DNA from: Celeribacter sp. HF31
GTDB lineage: Bacteria > Pseudomonadota > Alphaproteobacteria > Rhodobacterales > Rhodobacteraceae
Length of the DNA: 64,000 bases
NCBI RefSeq assembly: GCF_011806455.1
Contig: NZ_JAATOT010000004.1
Span: 186,001 to 250,000 of the forward strand
Direction of reading: 5' to 3'
The position numbers were made by a program, and so were the translations under genes. The number at the start of each line of letters is the position of its first letter. Positions within the stretch are counted from its first letter, which is position 1. Of this stretch, positions 5,113 to 48,594 are shown piece after piece. Under the pieces are notes generated by a model. That model was not told where the DNA came from. It saw only the letters and a program-made list of their open reading frames with translations, and searched no databases.

Positions 5113-5705
5113 TGCCAAAACACATGAGTGACCAAAGCCTGATTGGCGCCTTTGCAGCCCCTCCGCAAGACGCCGCCCGCGCGTTTCGCGCCGCGCTGAA
5201 AGCCCTCGCGCGCCCCGGCACGCTCCATGACATCAAGGGCGGTCAAGCGCCCGCGCCTGTGTCGGTGGCGGCGGCGAGTCTGCTCCTGACGCTCTGCGAC
5301 CCGGAAACGCCGCTTTGCCTGATGGGCGCGCATGACACGCCGGAGATCCGCGACTGGATCGCCTTTCAAATCGGCGCGCCCATCGTCGACCCTTTGACAG
5401 CCATGTTCGCGCTGGGCACTTGGGAGGCGTTGCAGCCGGTGACGGCTTTCCCCATCGGCACGGCGGAATATCCCGACCGCTCGACGACACTGATCGTCGA
5501 AATGGACGCGCTGTCTCAGGACGGCGCGCAGCTCACGGGGCCGGGGATCGAAACCACGGCCCGCCTCTCGTTGCCCGCCTTGGAGCCGTTTCAGAGGAAC
5601 GCGATGCTCTTCCCGCTGGGGCTCGATTTCTATTTCACCTCGGGCACACAGATCGCGGGTCTGCCGCGCAGCACGCAGGTCACTGACATGATGGAGGCCA
5701 ACTGA
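5112..5705 (+). CDS. phnH: C-P lyase complex subunit PhnH
   Basis: A 197-aa subunit of the C-P lyase core complex. The N-terminal part carries the PhnH pattern FRAALKALARPGTLHDIKGG, and FFTSGTQIAGLPRSTQV-like C-terminal residues (visible as FTSGTQIAGLPRSTQV) are typical of the family. PhnH belongs to the PLP-transferase fold but lacks the cofactor lysine and is thought to be structural. Start and stop overlap phnG and phnI respectively, so translation is coupled. An alternative start is the Met at residue 5. Confidence 0.92.
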   Translation: MPKHMSDQSLIGAFAAPPQDAARAFRAALKALARPGTLHDIKGGQAPAPVSVAAASLLLTLCDPETPLCLMGAHDTPEIRDWIAFQIGAPIVDPLTAMFALGTWEALQPVTAFPIGTAEYPDRSTTLIVEMDALSQDGAQLTGPGIETTARLSLPALEPFQRNAMLFPLGLDFYFTSGTQIAGLPRSTQVTDMMEAN

Positions 5706-6805
5706 TGTATGTTGCCGTCAAAGGGGGCGAACGCGCCATCGACAATGCGCACGCCTGGCTGGCCGAAGAGCGCCGGGGCGATGTGACGGTCGCGGAACTC
5801 ACCGTGCCGCAAATCCGCGAACAATTGGCGCTGGCTGTGAACCGCGTCATGACGGAAGGCTCGCTCTACGATCCCGATCTGGCCGCTCTGGCGATCAAGC
5901 AATCGCGCGGCGATCTGATCGAGGCGATTTTCCTCATTCGTGCCTACCGGACGACCCTGCCGCGCATCGGCCATTCGCATCCTGTCGAGACCGGCAAGAT
6001 GGCCTGTGATCGACGCGTGTCCGCGACGTTCAAAGACGTGCCGGGGGGGCAGGTTTTGGGACCGACCTTCGATTACACCCATCGTCTTTTGGATTTCAAA
6101 CTGATGGCGGAAGGCGAGGTGCCGGAGGCGGTCGAGGCCGATCCCCGGATTGAGCCGACCCCGCATGTGACGTCTTTCCTCAACAAGGAGGGCCTGATCC
6201 AGACCGAAGCCGAGAGTGGTGAGACCCCGCCGGACCTGACCCGCGAGCCGCTGGAACTGCCCGCCAACCGCGCGCTGCGGTTGCAGGCGCTGACCCGTGG
6301 CGACGAAGGCTTCATCCTGTCGATGGCCTATTCGACGCAACGCGGCTACGGCAACAGCCATGCGTTTGTGGGCGAGTTGCGCATCGGTAAGGTCGCGGTC
6401 GAGATGGACATCCCGGAACTGGGCTTTGCCATCGAGATCGGCGAAGTGGAACTGACCGAATGCGAAACCGTGAACAAATTCGCAGGCTCGAAAGTCGAGC
6501 CGCCGCAGTTCACACGCGGCTACGGGCTGACCTTTGGCCAGACGGAACGCAAGGCGATTTCCATGGCACTGGTCGACCGCTCGCTGCGCTCGAAGGAGTT
6601 GGGCGTCGAGGTCTCGAACTCGCCTGCGCATGACGAGGAATTCGTCTTGTATCACTGTGACAACATTCAGGCGACCGGATTCCTAGAACATATCAAATTG
6701 CCACACTATGTGGATTTTCAGTCCGAGATGGAACTGGTCCGCAAAATGCGCGCGGAGATTGCGAGCGCAAGTGCAGAAGAGAGAACGAAGGAGGCCGCAG
6801 AATGA
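5705..6805 (+). CDS. phnI: C-P lyase subunit PhnI (purine ribonucleosidase/phosphonate ribosyltransferase)
   Basis: A 366-aa subunit that, with PhnG, H and L, displaces adenine from ATP with methylphosphonate to give ribose 1-methylphosphonate 5-triphosphate. The start MYVAVKGGERAIDNAH is the standard PhnI N terminus. The family motifs SHPVETGKMACDRRVSATFK and YSTQRGYGNSHAFVGELRIG are present, and the length is normal. The start overlaps phnH by one base. After its stop there are about 250 bases before phnJ, holding a gene on the opposite strand. Confidence 0.95.
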   Translation: MYVAVKGGERAIDNAHAWLAEERRGDVTVAELTVPQIREQLALAVNRVMTEGSLYDPDLAALAIKQSRGDLIEAIFLIRAYRTTLPRIGHSHPVETGKMACDRRVSATFKDVPGGQVLGPTFDYTHRLLDFKLMAEGEVPEAVEADPRIEPTPHVTSFLNKEGLIQTEAESGETPPDLTREPLELPANRALRLQALTRGDEGFILSMAYSTQRGYGNSHAFVGELRIGKVAVEMDIPELGFAIEIGEVELTECETVNKFAGSKVEPPQFTRGYGLTFGQTERKAISMALVDRSLRSKELGVEVSNSPAHDEEFVLYHCDNIQATGFLEHIKLPHYVDFQSEMELVRKMRAEIASASAEERTKEAAE

Positions 6806-6807
6806 CC

Positions 6808-7026
6808 TCAGTCGCCGCCACCGCCAGCATCGCCGCCAGTATCAAATCCGCCACCATCCCATGTGTCATTGCGAGAGCTTTTCGGGAGGTCGATGCCACT
6901 CATGCTTCCGTCGGCCTCTCCCTGAAATTTGCGAGGCTTTGGTTTCCCACGACCAAGCACAACGAGAAGAACACCCAAGGCTGCAATGCCGAACAAAGGC
7001 GCAATCGCGAAGATAAAATCAATCAT
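6808..7026 (-). CDS. Small membrane protein, antisense between phnI and phnJ
   Basis: A 72-aa protein on the strand opposite the phn operon. Residues 2-25 form one hydrophobic segment (FIFAIAPLFGIAALGVLLVV). A basic turn (GRGKPKPRKF) follows, then an acidic, glycine-rich tail ending in TGGDAGGGGD. This layout resembles small single-pass proteins that are common in alphaproteobacteria, and it looks far more protein-like than the plus-strand reading of the same DNA. The gene fills almost exactly the gap between phnI and phnJ. Its start lies 28 bases before the phnJ ATG, so its promoter would have to lie inside phnJ. Its function is unknown. The ribosome site is weak (AGAAAG). Confidence 0.6.
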   Translation of the reverse strand: MIDFIFAIAPLFGIAALGVLLVVLGRGKPKPRKFQGEADGSMSGIDLPKSSRNDTWDGGGFDTGGDAGGGGD

Positions 7027-12965: not shown

Positions 12966-13070
12966 CATGTCGCAAGGACGCGACGTGAATGACATATGCC
13001 CCTCTGATACCGGGGCCCGCAGCAACGGCGCTGCATTCTCACCAAAAGACAATCTGGCTCATTCTGAGCC
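12966..13070 (+). promoter_or_regulatory. ANTAR-type tandem hexaloop leader of the nir operon
   Basis: Most of the 325-base gap before nirB (12769-13093) is leader. Hairpin 1 (12966-12987) has an 8-bp stem with one G-U pair closing the six-base loop AAGGAC. Hairpin 2 (13019-13034) has stem GCAGC/GCTGC closing AACGGC. Both loops have A at position 1 and G at position 4, the signature recognised by ANTAR-domain antiterminators such as NasR, NasT and EutV. A third hairpin, GGCTCA-TTC-TGAGCC (13056-13070), lies 23 bases before the nirB ATG and could be the terminator, although its T-run is poor. I infer NasT control. No nasS or nasT gene is in the window. Confidence 0.75.
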
Positions 13071-13093
13071 GCGTTCTGAGAGGAAGTGCCGCT

Positions 13094-15547
13094 ATGACTG
13101 CTCAAAAGCAAAAACTCGTGATCGTTGGAAATGGCATGGCGCCGAGCCGGATGCTTGAGCATCTGTTCGAAGTGGGCGACCAATACGAGGTCACCATTTT
13201 CAACGCTGAGCCGCGTGTGAACTACGACCGCATCATGCTGTCTCCGGTTCTGTCGGGCGAAAAGACCTATGCCGACATCATCATCCATGGCGAAGGCTGG
13301 TATGCCGAGCATGGCATCACGCTGCACCAAGGCGACAAGATCACCGAAATTCGCCGCCATGAGCGCAAGGTGATTTCCGAGAAAGGCGTGGTCGCGGACT
13401 ACGACAAGCTGGTCATCGCCACCGGGTCCAACCCCTTTATCATCCCCGTGCCGGGATCGGATCTGCCTGGCGTGTTGGCCTACCGCGATCTCGATGACAC
13501 CGACGGCATGATCAAAGCGGCTGAAAAAGGCGGGCGCGCTGTCGTGATCGGCGGCGGTCTTTTGGGCCTTGAGGCCGCTGCGGGTCTGAAACTGCGTGGC
13601 ATGGAGGTGACCGTCATTCACCTGATGCCGACGCTGATGGAACGTCAGCTCGATACCGCTGCCGGGTATCTTTTGCAAAAAGAACTGGAGAGCCGTGGCA
13701 TCGACGTGCTCTGCGAAGCCAACACCAAACAGATCCTCGGTGAGGGCAAAGTCGAGGGGGTGGAACTGGCTGACGGTCGCGTCATTGACGCCTCCCTCGT
13801 GGTGATGGCCGTCGGCATCCGTCCCAACGTCGCGCTGGCGCAAGAAGCGGGCCTTGAGGTCAATCGCGGCATCGTCACCGACGCGACGATGAAAACCTCT
13901 GACCCGAACATCTATTCCGTGGGGGAATGTGTGGAAGTGGGCGGCATGGTCTATGGCCTTGTCGCCCCTCTCTACCGCATGGCCAAAGTGGCCGCCGAAC
14001 ATCTGGCCGGTCCCTCTGAGGCCGCCTTTGCCCATGCAGAGACGCCGACCAAGCTCAAAGTCACAGGCTGCGACCTCTATTCCGTTGGCGATTTCGCCGA
14101 AGGCGAGGGGCGTGAGGACATCGTGCTGCGCGACGCGCAGCGCGGGACCTACAAACGGGTCATCCTCAAAGACAATAAACTGATCGGAGCCGTGCTCTAC
14201 GGCGATGTCGCCGATGGGGCGTGGTACAACCAGATGCTCATCTCGGGCGAAGATATTTCCGAGATGCGTGACACCCTGATCTTCGGTCAGGCCTATCAAG
14301 GCGGCGGCACGGTCGATCCGTTGGCGGCGGTCGCAGCACTTCCGGATGATGCGGAGATTTGCGGCTGTAACGGCATCACCAAGGGGATGATCGTCAAGGC
14401 GATCACCGACAAGGGCCTGACGTCTTTGGCCGATGTGCGCGCGCATTCCAAGGCCTCTGCGTCTTGCGGCACCTGCACGAACCTTGTCGAAGGCATCATG
14501 GGCATTACGCTTGGCGACGATTTCGTCCTCCCGGCGGCGCAGGGCATGTGCGGTTGCACCACCCATAGCCACGGCTTTGTCCGTCGCATGATCAAGGCGA
14601 AAGGCCTCAAATCCATCCCCGCCGTGATGCAGGAGCTGGAATGGTCGACGGCGGAGGGCTGTGCCAAATGCCGTCCGGCGCTGAACTACTACCTCGTTGC
14701 AGATTGGCCGGGGGAATACAAGGACGACCAGCAATCGCGCTTCATCAACGAACGTGTCCACGCCAACATCCAGAAAGACGGCACCTATTCCGTCGTGCCG
14801 CGGATGTTCGGGGGCATCACCACGCCGGATGAGCTGCGTGCCATCGCTGACGTGGCCGACAAATACGACATCCCGACCGTCAAGGTCACCGGCGGTCAGC
14901 GCATCGACTTGCTGGGTGTCAAAAAAGAAGACCTGATCCCGGTTTGGGCCGATCTCAACGCGGCGGGGATGATCTCCGGGGCGGCCTATTCCAAAGGCCT
15001 GCGCACGGTGAAAACCTGTGTCGGGACGGATTGGTGCCGCTTCGGCACGCAGGACTCGACGGGTCTGGGCATCAAGTTGGAGAAAGCACTCTGGGGGTCG
15101 TGGTCGCCTGCGAAACTCAAACTCGCGGTCACCGGCTGTCCGCGCAACTGTGCCGAAGCGACGTGCAAGGACATCGGCATCATCTGCGTCGATAGCGGCT
15201 ATGAGATCGTCTATGGCGGGGCTGCGGGGCTGCACATTCAGGGCACGACCGTGCTGGGCAAAGTCGCCACGGAAGAGGAGGTCATGGAGGTGGTTTGCGC
15301 GCTGACGCAGTATTACCGCGAGACCGGGTTCTACCTTGAGCGGATTTACAAATGGGCGGACCGGCTGGGCTACGATCACATCAAGGAAGTGATCTACGAC
15401 AATCTGGAGGAGCGCAAAGCCTTCGCCGAACGCTTCCGCTACTCACAGGAATTCGCGCAGGTTGACCCCTGGGCCGAACGTGTCGCGGGCGCCGAAGCCC
15501 ATGAATTCAAACCCATGGCCACCCTCAATCTGGAGGCAGCAGAATGA
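13094..15547 (+). CDS. nirB: Assimilatory nitrite reductase (NADH) large subunit NirB
   Basis: An 817-aa siroheme enzyme reducing nitrite to ammonium with NADH. The order is an N-terminal FAD/NAD(P)H oxidoreductase (IVGNGMAPSRML at the start, second nucleotide fold VVIGGGLLGLEAAAGL), BFD-like [2Fe-2S] segments (CGCNGITKG with SCGTCTNLVEG, then MCGCTTHSHG and EGCAKCRPALNY), and the C-terminal sulfite/nitrite reductase half. That half carries TCVGTDWCRFG and TGCPRNCAEATCKD, the four cysteines of the siroheme-[4Fe-4S] centre. I start at the ATG at 13094 because it has a GAGAGGAAG ribosome site and gives the family N terminus; upstream in-frame Mets fall in the RNA leader. Confidence 0.96.
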   Translation: MTAQKQKLVIVGNGMAPSRMLEHLFEVGDQYEVTIFNAEPRVNYDRIMLSPVLSGEKTYADIIIHGEGWYAEHGITLHQGDKITEIRRHERKVISEKGVVADYDKLVIATGSNPFIIPVPGSDLPGVLAYRDLDDTDGMIKAAEKGGRAVVIGGGLLGLEAAAGLKLRGMEVTVIHLMPTLMERQLDTAAGYLLQKELESRGIDVLCEANTKQILGEGKVEGVELADGRVIDASLVVMAVGIRPNVALAQEAGLEVNRGIVTDATMKTSDPNIYSVGECVEVGGMVYGLVAPLYRMAKVAAEHLAGPSEAAFAHAETPTKLKVTGCDLYSVGDFAEGEGREDIVLRDAQRGTYKRVILKDNKLIGAVLYGDVADGAWYNQMLISGEDISEMRDTLIFGQAYQGGGTVDPLAAVAALPDDAEICGCNGITKGMIVKAITDKGLTSLADVRAHSKASASCGTCTNLVEGIMGITLGDDFVLPAAQGMCGCTTHSHGFVRRMIKAKGLKSIPAVMQELEWSTAEGCAKCRPALNYYLVADWPGEYKDDQQSRFINERVHANIQKDGTYSVVPRMFGGITTPDELRAIADVADKYDIPTVKVTGGQRIDLLGVKKEDLIPVWADLNAAGMISGAAYSKGLRTVKTCVGTDWCRFGTQDSTGLGIKLEKALWGSWSPAKLKLAVTGCPRNCAEATCKDIGIICVDSGYEIVYGGAAGLHIQGTTVLGKVATEEEVMEVVCALTQYYRETGFYLERIYKWADRLGYDHIKEVIYDNLEERKAFAERFRYSQEFAQVDPWAERVAGAEAHEFKPMATLNLEAAE

Positions 15548-15864
15548 ACATGCAGAGCAAAACCTGGATTGAAGTCGGCACCCTCACTGACATCCCGCGG
15601 CAAGGCGCGCGCTGTGTGAAGACCGGCGAGATGACGATCGCCATCTTTCGCACCACCGACGACCGCCTTTTCGCCCTCGAAGACAAATGCCCGCATAAGA
15701 ACGGGCCGCTGAGCGATGGCATTGTGCACGACGGCTGTGTCACATGCCCGCTCCACAACTGGGTCATTTCCCTCGAAACAGGTGCCGCGCAAGGTGCCGA
15801 CGAGGGGATGAGCCTGACCTTCCCGGTCAAACTGGACGGCGAGACCGTATTGCTCGGTCTTTAA
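15544..15864 (+). CDS. nirD: Nitrite reductase small subunit NirD (Rieske-type)
   Basis: A 106-aa partner of NirB. Unlike E. coli NirD, which lacks cluster ligands, this one keeps both Rieske boxes: CPHKNGPLS (about residues 41-49) and CPLHNW (about residues 66-71). It should therefore bind a [2Fe-2S] cluster. Its ATG overlaps the nirB stop (ATGA), indicating translational coupling and equal production of the subunits. Confidence 0.94.
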   Translation: MNMQSKTWIEVGTLTDIPRQGARCVKTGEMTIAIFRTTDDRLFALEDKCPHKNGPLSDGIVHDGCVTCPLHNWVISLETGAAQGADEGMSLTFPVKLDGETVLLGL

Positions 15865-15997: not shown

Positions 15998-16840
15998 ATG
16001 GCTTATGTACAACCAAAGGAATTCGCCGCCAAAATGGTCGATGCGGGCGAATCCAAGATCTTCATGGCGACCAAAGACACCTTGATCCGCGCCTATATGG
16101 CGGGCGCGATCCTCGCACTGGCCGCCGCCTTCGCGGTGACCATCGCGGTCAACACCGGCAATTTCCTCGTGGCCTCGCTTCTCTTCCCGGTGGGCTTTTG
16201 TACGCTCTACCTTCTGGGCTTTGACCTTTTGACCGGCGTCTTCACGCTGGCGCCTCTGGCCGTCATCGCGAAACGCCCGGGATGCACCTGGAAAGGCGTG
16301 TTCCGCAACTGGGGTCTCGTCTTCGTCGGCAACTTTGCGGGCGCCATGACCACCGCGATCCTGATGGCGATCATCTTTACCATGGGCTTTTCTCAGGAAC
16401 CCAACGCCGTTGGCCAAAAGATCGGTCACATCGGCGAGGCACGTACCTTGGGCTATGCCGCTGCCGGCGGTGCAGGTCTCCTGACTGTCTTCGTCCGCGC
16501 GATCCTGTGCAACTGGATGGTCTCCACCGGTGTCGTCGCCGCGATGATGTCGAACTCCGTGTCGGGCAAAATCATGGCCATGTGGATGCCGATCATCGTG
16601 TTCTTCTACCTGGGCTTCGAGCACTCCATCGTGAACATGTTCCTTTTTCCCTCGGGCATCATGCTGGGCGGTGAGTTCACCTGGGGCGACTACTTCATGT
16701 ACAACGAGATCCCGGTCGTTTTGGGCAACCTCGTCGGCGGCCTGACCTTTGTCGGCGGCATGATCTACGCCACCCACTTCAAGGAATCGCCGAAACGCAA
16801 CGCCACCACGGCCTCCGTGCAGGGCGTGCCGGCTGAGTAA
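15998..16840 (+). CDS. nirC: Formate/nitrite-family channel NirC
   Basis: A 280-aa FNT-family pentameric channel for nitrite or formate. Six membrane segments can be followed. FNT landmarks include LLTVFVRAILCNWMVSTGVV, the TM5a-TM5b break around NSVSGKIMAMWMPI, and FEHSIVNMFLFPSGIM. The gene lies 133 bases downstream of nirD with an AGGGAC ribosome site. Position after nirBD makes nitrite uptake the best guess. Confidence 0.92.
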   Translation: MAYVQPKEFAAKMVDAGESKIFMATKDTLIRAYMAGAILALAAAFAVTIAVNTGNFLVASLLFPVGFCTLYLLGFDLLTGVFTLAPLAVIAKRPGCTWKGVFRNWGLVFVGNFAGAMTTAILMAIIFTMGFSQEPNAVGQKIGHIGEARTLGYAAAGGAGLLTVFVRAILCNWMVSTGVVAAMMSNSVSGKIMAMWMPIIVFFYLGFEHSIVNMFLFPSGIMLGGEFTWGDYFMYNEIPVVLGNLVGGLTFVGGMIYATHFKESPKRNATTASVQGVPAE

Positions 16841-16902: not shown

Positions 16903-18624
16903 ATGCCGAAAGACGCCGCATCGACAAAGCTCACGGTTTCGATTGGCCAGTTTTCGGAGGCGGGTCGAAAGCCCGAAAATCAGGACTTTTGCGGTGCATG
17001 GGTACCTGAAGGCAGCGCTTTATCGCTCAAGGGGATCACCTTGGCCGTGGCCGACGGTATCTCGTCGAGCGCCACAAGTGCAGAGGCCTCTGAGGCCAGT
17101 GTCACCGCACTTTTGACAGATTACTACGCCACCTCCGACGCCTGGACCGCGCGGACGGCGGCGACCACGGTGATCTCCGCCACCAATGCCTGGCTTTACG
17201 GTCAGAACGCCGCTTTGAGTGACATGAATGCGGGCAAGATATGTACGCTCTCCGCGCTGATTTTCAAAGGCTGTGAGGGGCATATCTTTCACTTGGGCGA
17301 CAGTCGGATTTACCGGCTGAGCGGTGAGGCGCTTGAGCCTTTGACCACGGATCACCGGGCGGTTCTCTCCCATGACGAAAGCTATCTCGCGCGCGGCATG
17401 GGCCTGGACGCGCAGGTCGCGGTTGACTATCGGCGGGTGTCACTGTCCGTCGGCGATGTCTTTATGCTTGCCACCGATGGGGTGCATGAGGGGATCGAGG
17501 CGGCGGATGTGATCCGCGCGCTGGAGGCCCCCGATCTCGACGCGGCGGCGAAGCAACTCGGCCAAATCGCCTATGAGCGCGGCTCCGAGGACAACCTCAC
17601 CGTGATGCTGGCCCGCGTCGAGAACCTGCCTGAGGCGGAGTTGGAGCTGGACCTCGCCAAGCTGCCGCTGCCGCCCTTGCCCAAGGCGGGCGATGTGATC
17701 GACGGGTTTCGTATCCTGCGGCCCGTCAATTCCACCGCCCGTTCGCATGTCTTTCTGGCCGAAGCTCCGGCGGGTGAAAAAATCGCGCTGAAAATTCCGA
17801 CCGTGGAGATGGCCGAAGACCCGGTCTATCTCAACCGCTTTGTCTTGGAAGAATGGATCGCACGGCGGCTGACGTCTTCTCACGTGCTGCGCGCCGCCAC
17901 CGCGCCCGCAGAGCGCAGCGCGCTCTATGTGGTCACCGAATGGGTCGAGGGCCGCACGCTCAGACAATGGATGGATGACCATCCCGCGCCCGACCCCGAT
18001 CTCGACAAGGTGCGCGACATCATCAGCCAGATCGTTGTCGGTCTGCGCGCCTTTCACCGCAAGGAAATGCTGCACCAAGACCTGCGCCCCGAGAACATCA
18101 TGATCGACGACGCGGGCACGGTGAAAATCATCGATCTGGGCTCGACGTCCGTGGCCGGGGTCGAAGAGGCGGCAGCGGGTGTGCTGGGTCCACTGCCCGG
18201 CACCTTTCAATATACCGCGCCCGAATATTTCTCCGGCGATTTCGTCACCTGGCGGTCGGATCAATATGCCTTGGGTGTGATCGCCTATGAGATGCTGACC
18301 GGGCGTTTGCCCTATGGCGCCGAGGTGGCGCGCATCCAGACCCGGCGCGATCTGTTGCGCCTGCGCTACCGGCCCGCACGCGATGACGACAGCCCGGTGC
18401 CCGCCTGGATGGATGCGGCGCTCAAACGCGCGACCCAGCCGGATGCCGCACGTCGCTATGATGCGCTGTCGGAGTTCGTGTCCGAGCTGAAACGCCCCGG
18501 CCAAAGCTGGCATGCGGCGCGTCATGTGCCGCTGATGGAAAAGAACCCTGTGCGGTTCTGGCAAGCGGTCTCCGCCGGTCTGGCGGTGATCGTGATCATT
18601 CTTGCAACACTCATCATAAACTGA
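16903..18624 (+). CDS. Fused PP2C-type phosphatase / Ser-Thr protein kinase, tail-anchored
   Basis: A 573-aa two-enzyme protein. Residues 1 to about 240 form a PP2C phosphatase with GRKPENQDF, VADGIS, GDSRIYRL, LATDGVHEG and GSEDNLTV, so the metal-binding aspartates are all present. Residues about 265-530 form a Hanks-type kinase: the nucleotide lysine is K297 (ALKIP), the catalytic loop is HQDLRPEN with D393, and the Mg2+-binding DLG has D411. A single hydrophobic helix near 550-572 ends the protein, giving a tail anchor. It sits between nirC and cynS. Both halves look active. The targets are unknown, with transport or nitrogen assimilation proteins suggested by position. Confidence 0.9.
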   Translation: MPKDAASTKLTVSIGQFSEAGRKPENQDFCGAWVPEGSALSLKGITLAVADGISSSATSAEASEASVTALLTDYYATSDAWTARTAATTVISATNAWLYGQNAALSDMNAGKICTLSALIFKGCEGHIFHLGDSRIYRLSGEALEPLTTDHRAVLSHDESYLARGMGLDAQVAVDYRRVSLSVGDVFMLATDGVHEGIEAADVIRALEAPDLDAAAKQLGQIAYERGSEDNLTVMLARVENLPEAELELDLAKLPLPPLPKAGDVIDGFRILRPVNSTARSHVFLAEAPAGEKIALKIPTVEMAEDPVYLNRFVLEEWIARRLTSSHVLRAATAPAERSALYVVTEWVEGRTLRQWMDDHPAPDPDLDKVRDIISQIVVGLRAFHRKEMLHQDLRPENIMIDDAGTVKIIDLGSTSVAGVEEAAAGVLGPLPGTFQYTAPEYFSGDFVTWRSDQYALGVIAYEMLTGRLPYGAEVARIQTRRDLLRLRYRPARDDDSPVPAWMDAALKRATQPDAARRYDALSEFVSELKRPGQSWHAARHVPLMEKNPVRFWQAVSAGLAVIVIILATLIIN

Positions 18625-18642: not shown

Positions 18643-19122
18643 ATGAAAGATTCTGTGAAAGACATCGTAACCGACACCTTGATGACCAAAGAAGACGTGA
18701 CCGCCCTCATCCTCATCGCCAAAAAGAAACAGGGGTTGAGCTGGGAAGCCATCGCCGAGACCATCGGCATGTCGCCGGTCTTCACCCACTCCGCCTGTAT
18801 GGGCATGAACGCCTTTCCGCTGGAGAAAGCCGAGGCCTTGGTCGCCGCGCTGAGCCTGCCGTCTGAGGCGGCCGAGGTTCTGGTGGAAAGCCCGACGAAA
18901 GCGTGGGCGCAAACCGTGCCGACCGATCCTTGCATCTATCGATTCTACGAAATCGTCGGCGTCTACGGCCCGACGCTCAAGGCGCTGATCCATGAGAAAT
19001 TCGGCGACGGCATCATGTCGGCGATCGATTTCGATATGTCCGTCGAGAGGATCGAGAACCCGAAAGGCGATCGGGTCGAGGTCAAAATGTCCGGCAAATA
19101 CCTGCAATACAACGCGTGGTGA
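18643..19122 (+). CDS. cynS: Cyanate hydratase (cyanase)
   Basis: A 159-aa decameric enzyme that uses bicarbonate to convert cyanate to ammonia and CO2. The N-terminal helical domain (IAKKKQGLSWEAIAETIG) is followed by the catalytic domain with R100, E103 and S126 (YRFYEIVG ... IMSAIDF). These correspond with a constant +4 offset to the E. coli catalytic residues 96, 99 and 122. It follows the kinase/phosphatase gene by 18 bases with an AGGAGAGA ribosome site, so it is probably in the same transcript, giving another ammonium source. Confidence 0.95.
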   Translation: MKDSVKDIVTDTLMTKEDVTALILIAKKKQGLSWEAIAETIGMSPVFTHSACMGMNAFPLEKAEALVAALSLPSEAAEVLVESPTKAWAQTVPTDPCIYRFYEIVGVYGPTLKALIHEKFGDGIMSAIDFDMSVERIENPKGDRVEVKMSGKYLQYNAW

Positions 19123-48294: not shown

Positions 48295-48374
48295 ACTGTC
48301 GAAATGTCGTAAGTTTCCTATCGGAAATATTTTCGGCTTGTCCCGAATCTGGACCTTGCCTAAGGTCGCCTCAC

Positions 48375-48533
48375 ATCGTGCGTTGGGAGAAGGGACTTCC
48401 CTACCGAAGGAGCAACCGCCCCGGAAAACTCTCAGGTGAACGGACCTTCGCACGGTCATGAAACTCTGGAGAGAGGGGTGTGACGCCTCCGCCGAAGGGA
48501 TAACGATCTCAGGCACATAGGACAGAGGGGGCA
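48375..48533 (+). promoter_or_regulatory. Tandem glycine riboswitch upstream of gcvT
   Basis: Two successive aptamer cores can be read in the 48235-48594 gap. The first has GGGAGAAG, then CTACCGAAGGAGCAACCGCC, AAACTCTCAGGTGAACGGACC and a closing CTCTGGAGA. The second has GAGAGGGG, then CCGCCGAAGGGATAAC, ATCTCAGGCACATAGGACAG and AGGGGG. These are the conserved glycine aptamer elements (CCGAAGG, CTCAGG, GGACAG). In the family, bound glycine usually turns on glycine-cleavage genes. Confidence 0.93.
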
Positions 48534-48594
48534 TCATGGATACCGTCGGCTTTCGGGCTGCGGTGGGATGCACCAAAGGGGGCAAGAGGTTAGA

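Follow-up and report, generated by a model that had tools for sequence, protein, structure and literature searches.

A nirB leader in Celeribacter as a probable NasT target RNA with a predicted switch at the ribosome site

ANTAR-target RNAs are defined as two hairpins of at least 3 bp, each closing a six-base loop whose first base is A and fourth base G (PMC3369931). The leaders of eut in Enterococcus, nasF in Klebsiella and nasA in Paracoccus all carry these two hexaloop hairpins together with an intrinsic terminator, and in the eut leader the bases of the second hairpin (P2) are common to the competing structure (PMC3369931, PMC8934654). In Paracoccus, nitrate assimilation genes are under the control of NasT and NasS (PMC3795266, PMC5424462); nitrate or nitrite dissociates the NasS-NasT complex, which frees NasT (PMC3795266). 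Certain hexaloop RNAs of actinobacteria act on translation, with the ribosome site lying within the dual hairpin and binding causing repression (PMC8164766). In the literature covered, ANTAR proteins are antiterminators or, in actinobacteria, translational repressors.

The leader before nirB in Celeribacter sp. HF31 has the same two hexaloops, and as in the eut leader the bases of P2 also belong to a competing structure. It differs from the eut, nasF and nasA leaders in that its competing structure lacks a T run and masks the ribosome site, and from the actinobacterial RNAs in that the predicted outcome of binding is activation, brought about from a distance through refolding. With a probability that we put at about 0.7, the leader is a NasT target RNA that would act at the level of translation through release of the ribosome site, as judged from leader comparisons and computed folds. 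It lies in a window of 64 kb, the whole stretch of DNA analyzed (C8:186001-250000), within a genome of 3.6 Mb.

Architecture and conservation of the nirB leader

Both A1/G4 hexaloop hairpins that the original prediction placed before nirB are present (P1 and P2; Table 1), and together they conform to the dual-hexaloop definition given above. On the + strand of the window they form the sole A1/G4 hexaloop pair with stems of at least 5 bp and loops 21-59 nt apart, and the - strand holds one further pair within the same limits. The 151-nt leader folds better than 200 of 200 dinucleotide shuffles (z = -3.5), and Rfam 15 returned no match to any family at the gathering score.

Three further hairpins accompany the pair. 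A spacer hairpin between P1 and P2, which the original prediction did not notice, has counterparts in that the spacer is hairpin-forming in 23 of 26 nirB leaders. It may make the spacer between P1 and P2 effectively shorter; for EutV, antitermination was lost when the linker was lengthened by 20 nt (PMC8934654). Another hairpin directly precedes P1, near the presumed transcript start, and its exact CGAG and CTCG arms were recognized by eye in five of the ten closest leaders (L003, L005-L008). The third hairpin, which had been predicted just before the ribosome site, does exist, but only as the tip of a longer structure, the anti-P2 hairpin, which joins the Shine-Dalgarno region to the 3' half of P2 by base pairing. 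This points to control at the level of translation. The 3' arm of this competing hairpin stops 2 bases short of the nirB ATG.

Table 1. Features of the nirB leader and of the genes that follow it (window coordinates)
Feature	Position	Strand	Details
5' hairpin CGAG...CTCG, just before P1	12951-12965	+	Paired in the minimum free energy (MFE) fold
P1, CATGTCGC-AAGGAC-GCGACGTG	12966-12987	+	8-bp stem; loop 12974-12979; A1 12974, G4 12977
Spacer hairpin GCCCC-TCTGATACC-GGGGC, between P1 and P2	12998-13016	+	Hairpin-forming spacer in 23 of 26 nirB leaders
P2, GCAGC-AACGGC-GCTGC	13019-13034	+	5-bp stem; loop 13024-13029; A1 13024, G4 13027
5' arm of anti-P2 helix (P2 loop positions 3-6 and GCT of the P2 3' arm)	13026-13032	+	Partner 13085-13091
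Second 5' arm, TTCTCA	13036-13041	+	Partner TGAGAG, 13077-13082
Tip of anti-P2 hairpin, GGCTCA-TTC-TGAGCC	13056-13070	+	Sequence and computed fold
3' arms, TGAGAG and AGTGCCG	13077-13091	+	Include the Shine-Dalgarno region GAGAGGAAG (13078-13086)
nirB, nitrite reductase large subunit	13094-15547	+	TIGR02374, E = 1.3e-269
nirD, small subunit	15544-15864	+	TIGR02378
Formate/nitrite transporter family gene (nirC/focA-like)	15998-16840	+	PF01226
PP2C phosphatase-protein kinase fusion	16903-18624	+	PF13672 and PF00069
cynS, cyanase	18643-19122	+	TIGR00673, PF02560

Conservation of the loops in related nirB leaders, on which the original prediction had staked itself, is borne out. We fetched 137 NirB loci, 30 from 81 relatives, 80 named GTDB loci and 27 more from 394 family genomes. 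The hexaloop pair lies upstream of NirB in 26 of the 27 loci of the window's lineage versus 1 of the 110 other loci, a division made after inspection of the data and not by identity alone; the same script found the pair in 0 of 1350 shuffled controls. The lineage set (25 distinct upstream sequences) has NirB identities of at least 73.4% over the N-terminal part, and four Rhizobiales loci of 73.7-75.3% identity, all lacking the pair, were placed among the 110. When the cut is made by identity only, the pair is found in 19 of 20 loci at 76% or more and in 18 of 18 at 78% or more. The lineage exception, L116 in genome G406, retains P2, and a mismatched P1 can be made out by eye.

Across 20 aligned leaders, A1 and G4 are invariant in both loops and positions 3, 5 and 6 vary. 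All 197 counted cells of the P1 and P2 stems are paired, a figure that is partly true by construction because the leaders were chosen for having stems. Five of the ten pairs have changed on both sides, and the covariation of 0.369 (shuffled mean 0.207) was reached by 0 of 500 shuffles. On all sequence features that could be checked, the leader reads as a dual-hexaloop ANTAR-target RNA.

NasT as the probable regulator, and the apparent terminators of nrtA leaders

The original prediction proposed control of the NasS-NasT type although no such gene was nearby, and named a search of the genome for nasS and nasT as a check. That search found nasT together with a NasS-like gene. The type of control is backed by this gene pair, which lies on the same contig but outside the window, 93 kb upstream of the nirB leader. 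The genome, 96% complete, yielded a single ANTAR domain (PF03861, E = 3.1e-22). The 200-residue product of nasT (5174-5776 of locus L002) scores above the cut-off for PF03861 and below it for the receiver domain PF00072 (26.1 versus 30.2 bits). The next gene (5773-6948) overlaps nasT by four bases and is called NasS-like because its product and NrtA fall into one Pfam family (PF13379), so that a receiver-like and ANTAR-containing nasT stands beside a substrate-binding-protein-like nasS. The best sequence matches of the ANTAR protein among solved structures are entries named putative antiterminator (1s8n), response regulator (6wsh), nitrate regulatory protein (4akk) and AmiR (1qo0). Behind the NasS-like gene follow nrtA, more transporter-like genes, a nirB-like flavoprotein gene and a nitrate-reductase-like gene, mostly assigned from translations only.

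All 14 genomes with a nirB leader, the window's own and those of 13 relatives, contain an ANTAR match of E = 1.3e-21 or better, leaders having been read only at the 30 fetched loci of relatives; a match at E = 0.001 occurs in 24 of the other 67 searched genomes. One close relative (G007, L204) has a nirB split with an in-frame TAG, an ANTAR frame of only 98 amino acids and an nrtA in two pieces, and both hexaloop hairpins of its nirB leader are intact. The pathway seems to be decaying together in this genome.

The original prediction also took the leader for an antitermination element, and here the evidence turned out differently. No feature resembling an intrinsic terminator was found downstream of P2 in the nirB leader, whereas the nrtA leaders of the same genomes do have one. 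In the 13 short nirB leaders described below, there is no hairpin with a U run overlapping P2, and no T run before the inferred start exceeds 4: the longest run behind P2 measures 2 in eleven leaders and 3 in another, and the one run of 4 has three of its T within a predicted stem. Thirteen longer nirB leaders were measured, and their longest T runs are 3 to 5. By comparison, the nrtA leader has a T run of 6-8 in all 14 genomes with a nirB leader, and 26 of 27 nrtA leaders have a run of at least 5 within 130 nt of the inferred start (L160 has 4). A terminator pattern scan found none on the + strand at nirB; the scan is insensitive and carries no weight because it also missed the nrtA terminator, probably owing to a hairpin loop longer than the scan permits.

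By eye, the nrtA leader of the window genome consists of P1 (loop AACGAT), a spacer hairpin, P2 (GAGC-AAAGCC-GCTC) and a long hairpin that shares the bases of P2 and is followed by six T. In this genome, nrtA seems to have a terminator that overlaps P2 and whose action NasT prevents. An initial rendering of the nrtA P1 with an eight-base loop was rejected in favor of GGC-AACGAT-GCC on a bulged stem, and a bulged P1 stem is common to the nrtA leaders of the window's genus. The nrtA leaders L140-L166 look like NasT-type attenuators, in most of which the spacer forms a hairpin and P2 is shared with a terminator; a search of Rfam 15 gave no match at L140 and L141.

Classical antitermination, with NasT blocking an intrinsic terminator that overlaps P2, would extend to nirB the same protein and hexaloop rule as at nrtA. 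Such a mechanism is reported for Paracoccus nasA (PMC5424462), and a title in the reference list of PMC6759348 speaks of transcriptional antitermination in nitrate assimilation for the nirBD operon of Pseudomonas aeruginosa, a likeness drawn from that title alone. The short T runs of the nirB leaders argue against it, as does the 3' arm of the competing hairpin, which contains the ribosome site and reaches almost to the start codon. We consider antitermination at nirB distinctly unlikely, and release of the ribosome site by NasT remains the preferred reading.

Predicted competition between P2 and the ribosome site

Thirteen nirB leaders are short, with 49-63 nt from P2 to the ATG (L003-L012, L033, L034 and L036; 12 distinct sequences). 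In these, P2 contributes loop positions 3-6 and the beginning of its 3' arm to a helix with AGTGCCG (or its equivalent) just ahead of the ATG, and the bases that come next pair with TGAGAG (or its equivalent), which places the ribosome region inside a closed hairpin. This pairing between the 3' half of P2 and the ribosome site went unnoticed in the original prediction, as did the nasT-nasS pair outside the window. For each of the 12 distinct short leaders the anti-P2 structure is the MFE fold; L036 forms it in a shifted register. By computation, the leader has the mutually exclusive fold pairing the ribosome site that a translational switch calls for.

In an ensemble computation, the probability of P2 without ligand is 0.000-0.006 in all 13 short leaders. 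When the sequence behind P2 is shuffled, the mean rises to 0.50-0.94, and a probability as low as the natural one was obtained in 0-2 of 200 shuffles for eleven leaders, in 7 of 200 for L036 and in 14 of 200 for L033. Pairing between the P2 half and the ribosome zone has a probability of 0.84-1.00 in 12 of the 13, as high in only 0 or 1 of 200 shuffles; in L036 it is weaker (0.37) and equalled by 20 of 200. The ensemble computation was made because a duplex-energy test, matching the 3' half of P2 to the downstream sequence, had started its query at loop position 4 and ignored the closing hairpin. The outcome of that test in ten short leaders was mixed, with equally good shuffles among 300 numbering 14 (L003), 18 (L004), 287 (L006), 9 (L007), 3 (L008), 1 (L009), 261 (L011), 191 (L033), 225 (L034) and 165 (L036).

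The anti-P2 helix also covaries. In a MAFFT alignment of the short leaders, 89.7% of its 155 cells are paired, and sliding the alignment by 1-3 columns drops this to 38-62%. Double changes occur in 5 of 13 pairs (9 cells); the covariation score and the cell count were reached by 0 of 500 shuffles, and the five pairs by 10 of 500. The count of further pair types is not above that of shuffles (335 of 500 reach it), and in the second helix the pair of columns 18-68 is broken in 7 of 12 distinct rows. Taken alone, the closest nine sequences have double changes in 3 of 19 pairs, reached by 159 of 500 shuffles, with a score reached by 4 of 500. One compensatory change, from C-G to U-A, involves loop position 3 of P2 and a base just before the start codon: L010-L012 have the P2 loop AATGGC instead of one with C at position 3, and in the partner G has become A. 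This is probably a single event, because the 13 short leaders are related.

When P1 and P2 are forced in the window leader, the mean unpaired probability over positions -15 to +3 rises from 0.27 to 0.51. The modelled opening of the ribosome region is incomplete, which counts against a translational switch. The same computation in ten short leaders raised the unpaired probability of the ribosome region by 0.06-0.26 in nine, least in L033 and L034, and gave a slight fall in L008. It used starts inferred by BLAST, which were misplaced by 24 nt in L008 and by 9 nt in L007.

NasT could conceivably act in the opposite direction, occluding the ribosome site and so repressing translation of nirB, a mode of action reported for mycobacterial RNAs in which ANTAR-bound hairpins lie over ribosome sites (PMC8164766). 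However, 43 bases separate the end of P2 from the Shine-Dalgarno region, so that NasT bound at P2 should not cover the site, and the competing fold hides the site already without NasT. Repression of a nitrite reductase by nitrate would also make little sense for assimilation. Repression by NasT therefore appears extremely improbable, and we retain release of the ribosome site as the favored model.

In longer leaders, where the start lies about 88-127 nt behind P2, forcing P1 and P2 does not open the ribosome region in 9 of 10 cases (change of -0.16 to +0.03); in L037 the unpaired probability increases from 0.26 to 0.40. We sought a common output mechanism for the long nirB leaders and found none. 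By eye, the 3' side of P1 in three long leaders (L037, L118 and L119) seems complementary to a stretch about 100 nt downstream, which ends near a hairpin over the ribosome site and is possibly a second type of output structure. For L015, L016 and L035 the start is uncertain: each would join the short class if translation began at an in-frame ATG that precedes the inferred one.

The operon, the wider regulon and the proposed switch

Four genes follow nirB in the window (Table 1). The gene between those for the nitrite transporter and cyanase encodes a PP2C phosphatase-kinase fusion, and PP2C-like frames come after the transporter in several relatives too. Elsewhere in the window, a glycine riboswitch aptamer (48374-48457, + strand, 48.2 bits) precedes a gcvT-like gene at 48568 that is followed, by eye, by a gcvH-like frame, an ordinary arrangement.

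Further copies of the element were searched for with a model, R1, in whose underlying alignment P1 of L034 is misaligned. In the window's own genome the nirB leader scores 71.2 bits and the next match, at 19.7 bits (E = 0.22), is taken as chance; this search yielded no further credible site in that genome and did not pick up the nrtA leader, with its differing P2. A loose 16-base pattern run over the same genome gave 3244 and 3319 matches against 3312 and 3295 for a backward control and was dropped. Of 394 family genomes, 16 were matched by R1 at E of at most 1e-5: seven had contributed to the model, an eighth (G093) is identical upstream to one of these, and eight are new. The model missed G406, in which P1 is mismatched. 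Two matches (L199 and L201) seem to fall within coding sequence and are regarded as chance.

In seven of the eight new genomes, the first recognizable downstream gene is, by eye, a nirC-like transporter gene whose start codon lies about 170-400 nt from the element, a distance that fits an effect at the level of transcription at least as well. L198 (E = 9.1e-6) stands before no nameable gene, and a second match in G090 (L202) precedes cynS; in the window, the transporter and cynS genes come after nirB itself. In L185 and L192, apparent remains of a nirB start lie between the leader and a nitrite-transporter-like gene, which suggests that nirB was lost and the leader kept. The likely NasT regulon in Rhodobacterales would then also include nirBD, a nitrite transporter and cyanase.

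These loci bear on two other explanations. The first is Rho-dependent control, in which NasT or translation would block the loading of Rho, so that the decision falls on transcription and the leader has little direct effect on the ribosome. The long leaders and the nirC-type loci, which retain the hexaloops without pairing of the ribosome site, are in keeping with this, as is the lack of any T run above 5 in the long nirB leaders, but the covarying ribosome-site pairing of the short leaders is left unexplained. We regard Rho-dependent control as unlikely. The second holds that the hairpins are kept for some other reason, such as RNA stability or another binding protein, and that NasT does not bind. 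It sits poorly with the invariance of A1 and G4 across both loops, in contrast to the variable positions 3, 5 and 6, and with the presence of the element before a nitrite-transporter-like gene and cynS. An ANTAR match, moreover, accompanies the element in all 14 genomes described above and, at E of at most 1e-15, in all 16 R1 genomes (versus 142 of the 378 other family genomes). A role unconnected with NasT is very improbable.

We favor a switch at the ribosome site, for which we infer binding by NasT, an effect on translation and, from NasS-NasT of Paracoccus, a nitrate signal. When nitrate and nitrite are absent, NasT would be held by NasS, and in the free leader the 3' half of P2 would pair with the ribosome-binding region of nirB, so that a long hairpin closes over the site. 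When either is present, NasT would be released, bind the P1 and P2 hexaloops and hold P2 together. Since P2 and the anti-P2 helix use the same bases, this would free the ribosome site and allow nirB to be translated. The later genes of the operon may follow through coupling or reduced polarity.

One NasT could control a single pathway through two mechanisms in one cell, antitermination for nitrate uptake at nrtA and release of the ribosome site for nitrite reduction at nirB, the expression platform having been swapped under a conserved dual-hexaloop sensor. We lean toward this broader picture, and the same sensor also occurs before a nitrite-transporter-like gene and cynS in relatives.

A literature search, with most subscription journals outside its scope, found no description of translational activation by NasT or another ANTAR protein at a natural leader. 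NmPAL, a light-responsive RNA-binding protein, contains an ANTAR domain. In an engineered NmPAL riboptoregulator, the RNA loops back on the Shine-Dalgarno sequence, and binding of the protein undoes the loop and turns translation on (PMC11381354). That circuit is synthetic and responds to light, whereas the nirB leader is natural, has two hexaloops and would respond through NasT and NasS.

If the proposed mechanism is true, the nirB leader would be a natural counterpart of such an engineered circuit. The model makes a single-base prediction, namely that position 13091, the partner of P2 loop position 3, which the A1/G4 rule leaves free, should be decisive. A natural translational on-switch would widen the repertoire of the ANTAR domain, and the dual-hexaloop sensor would prove joinable to different output structures inside one regulon.
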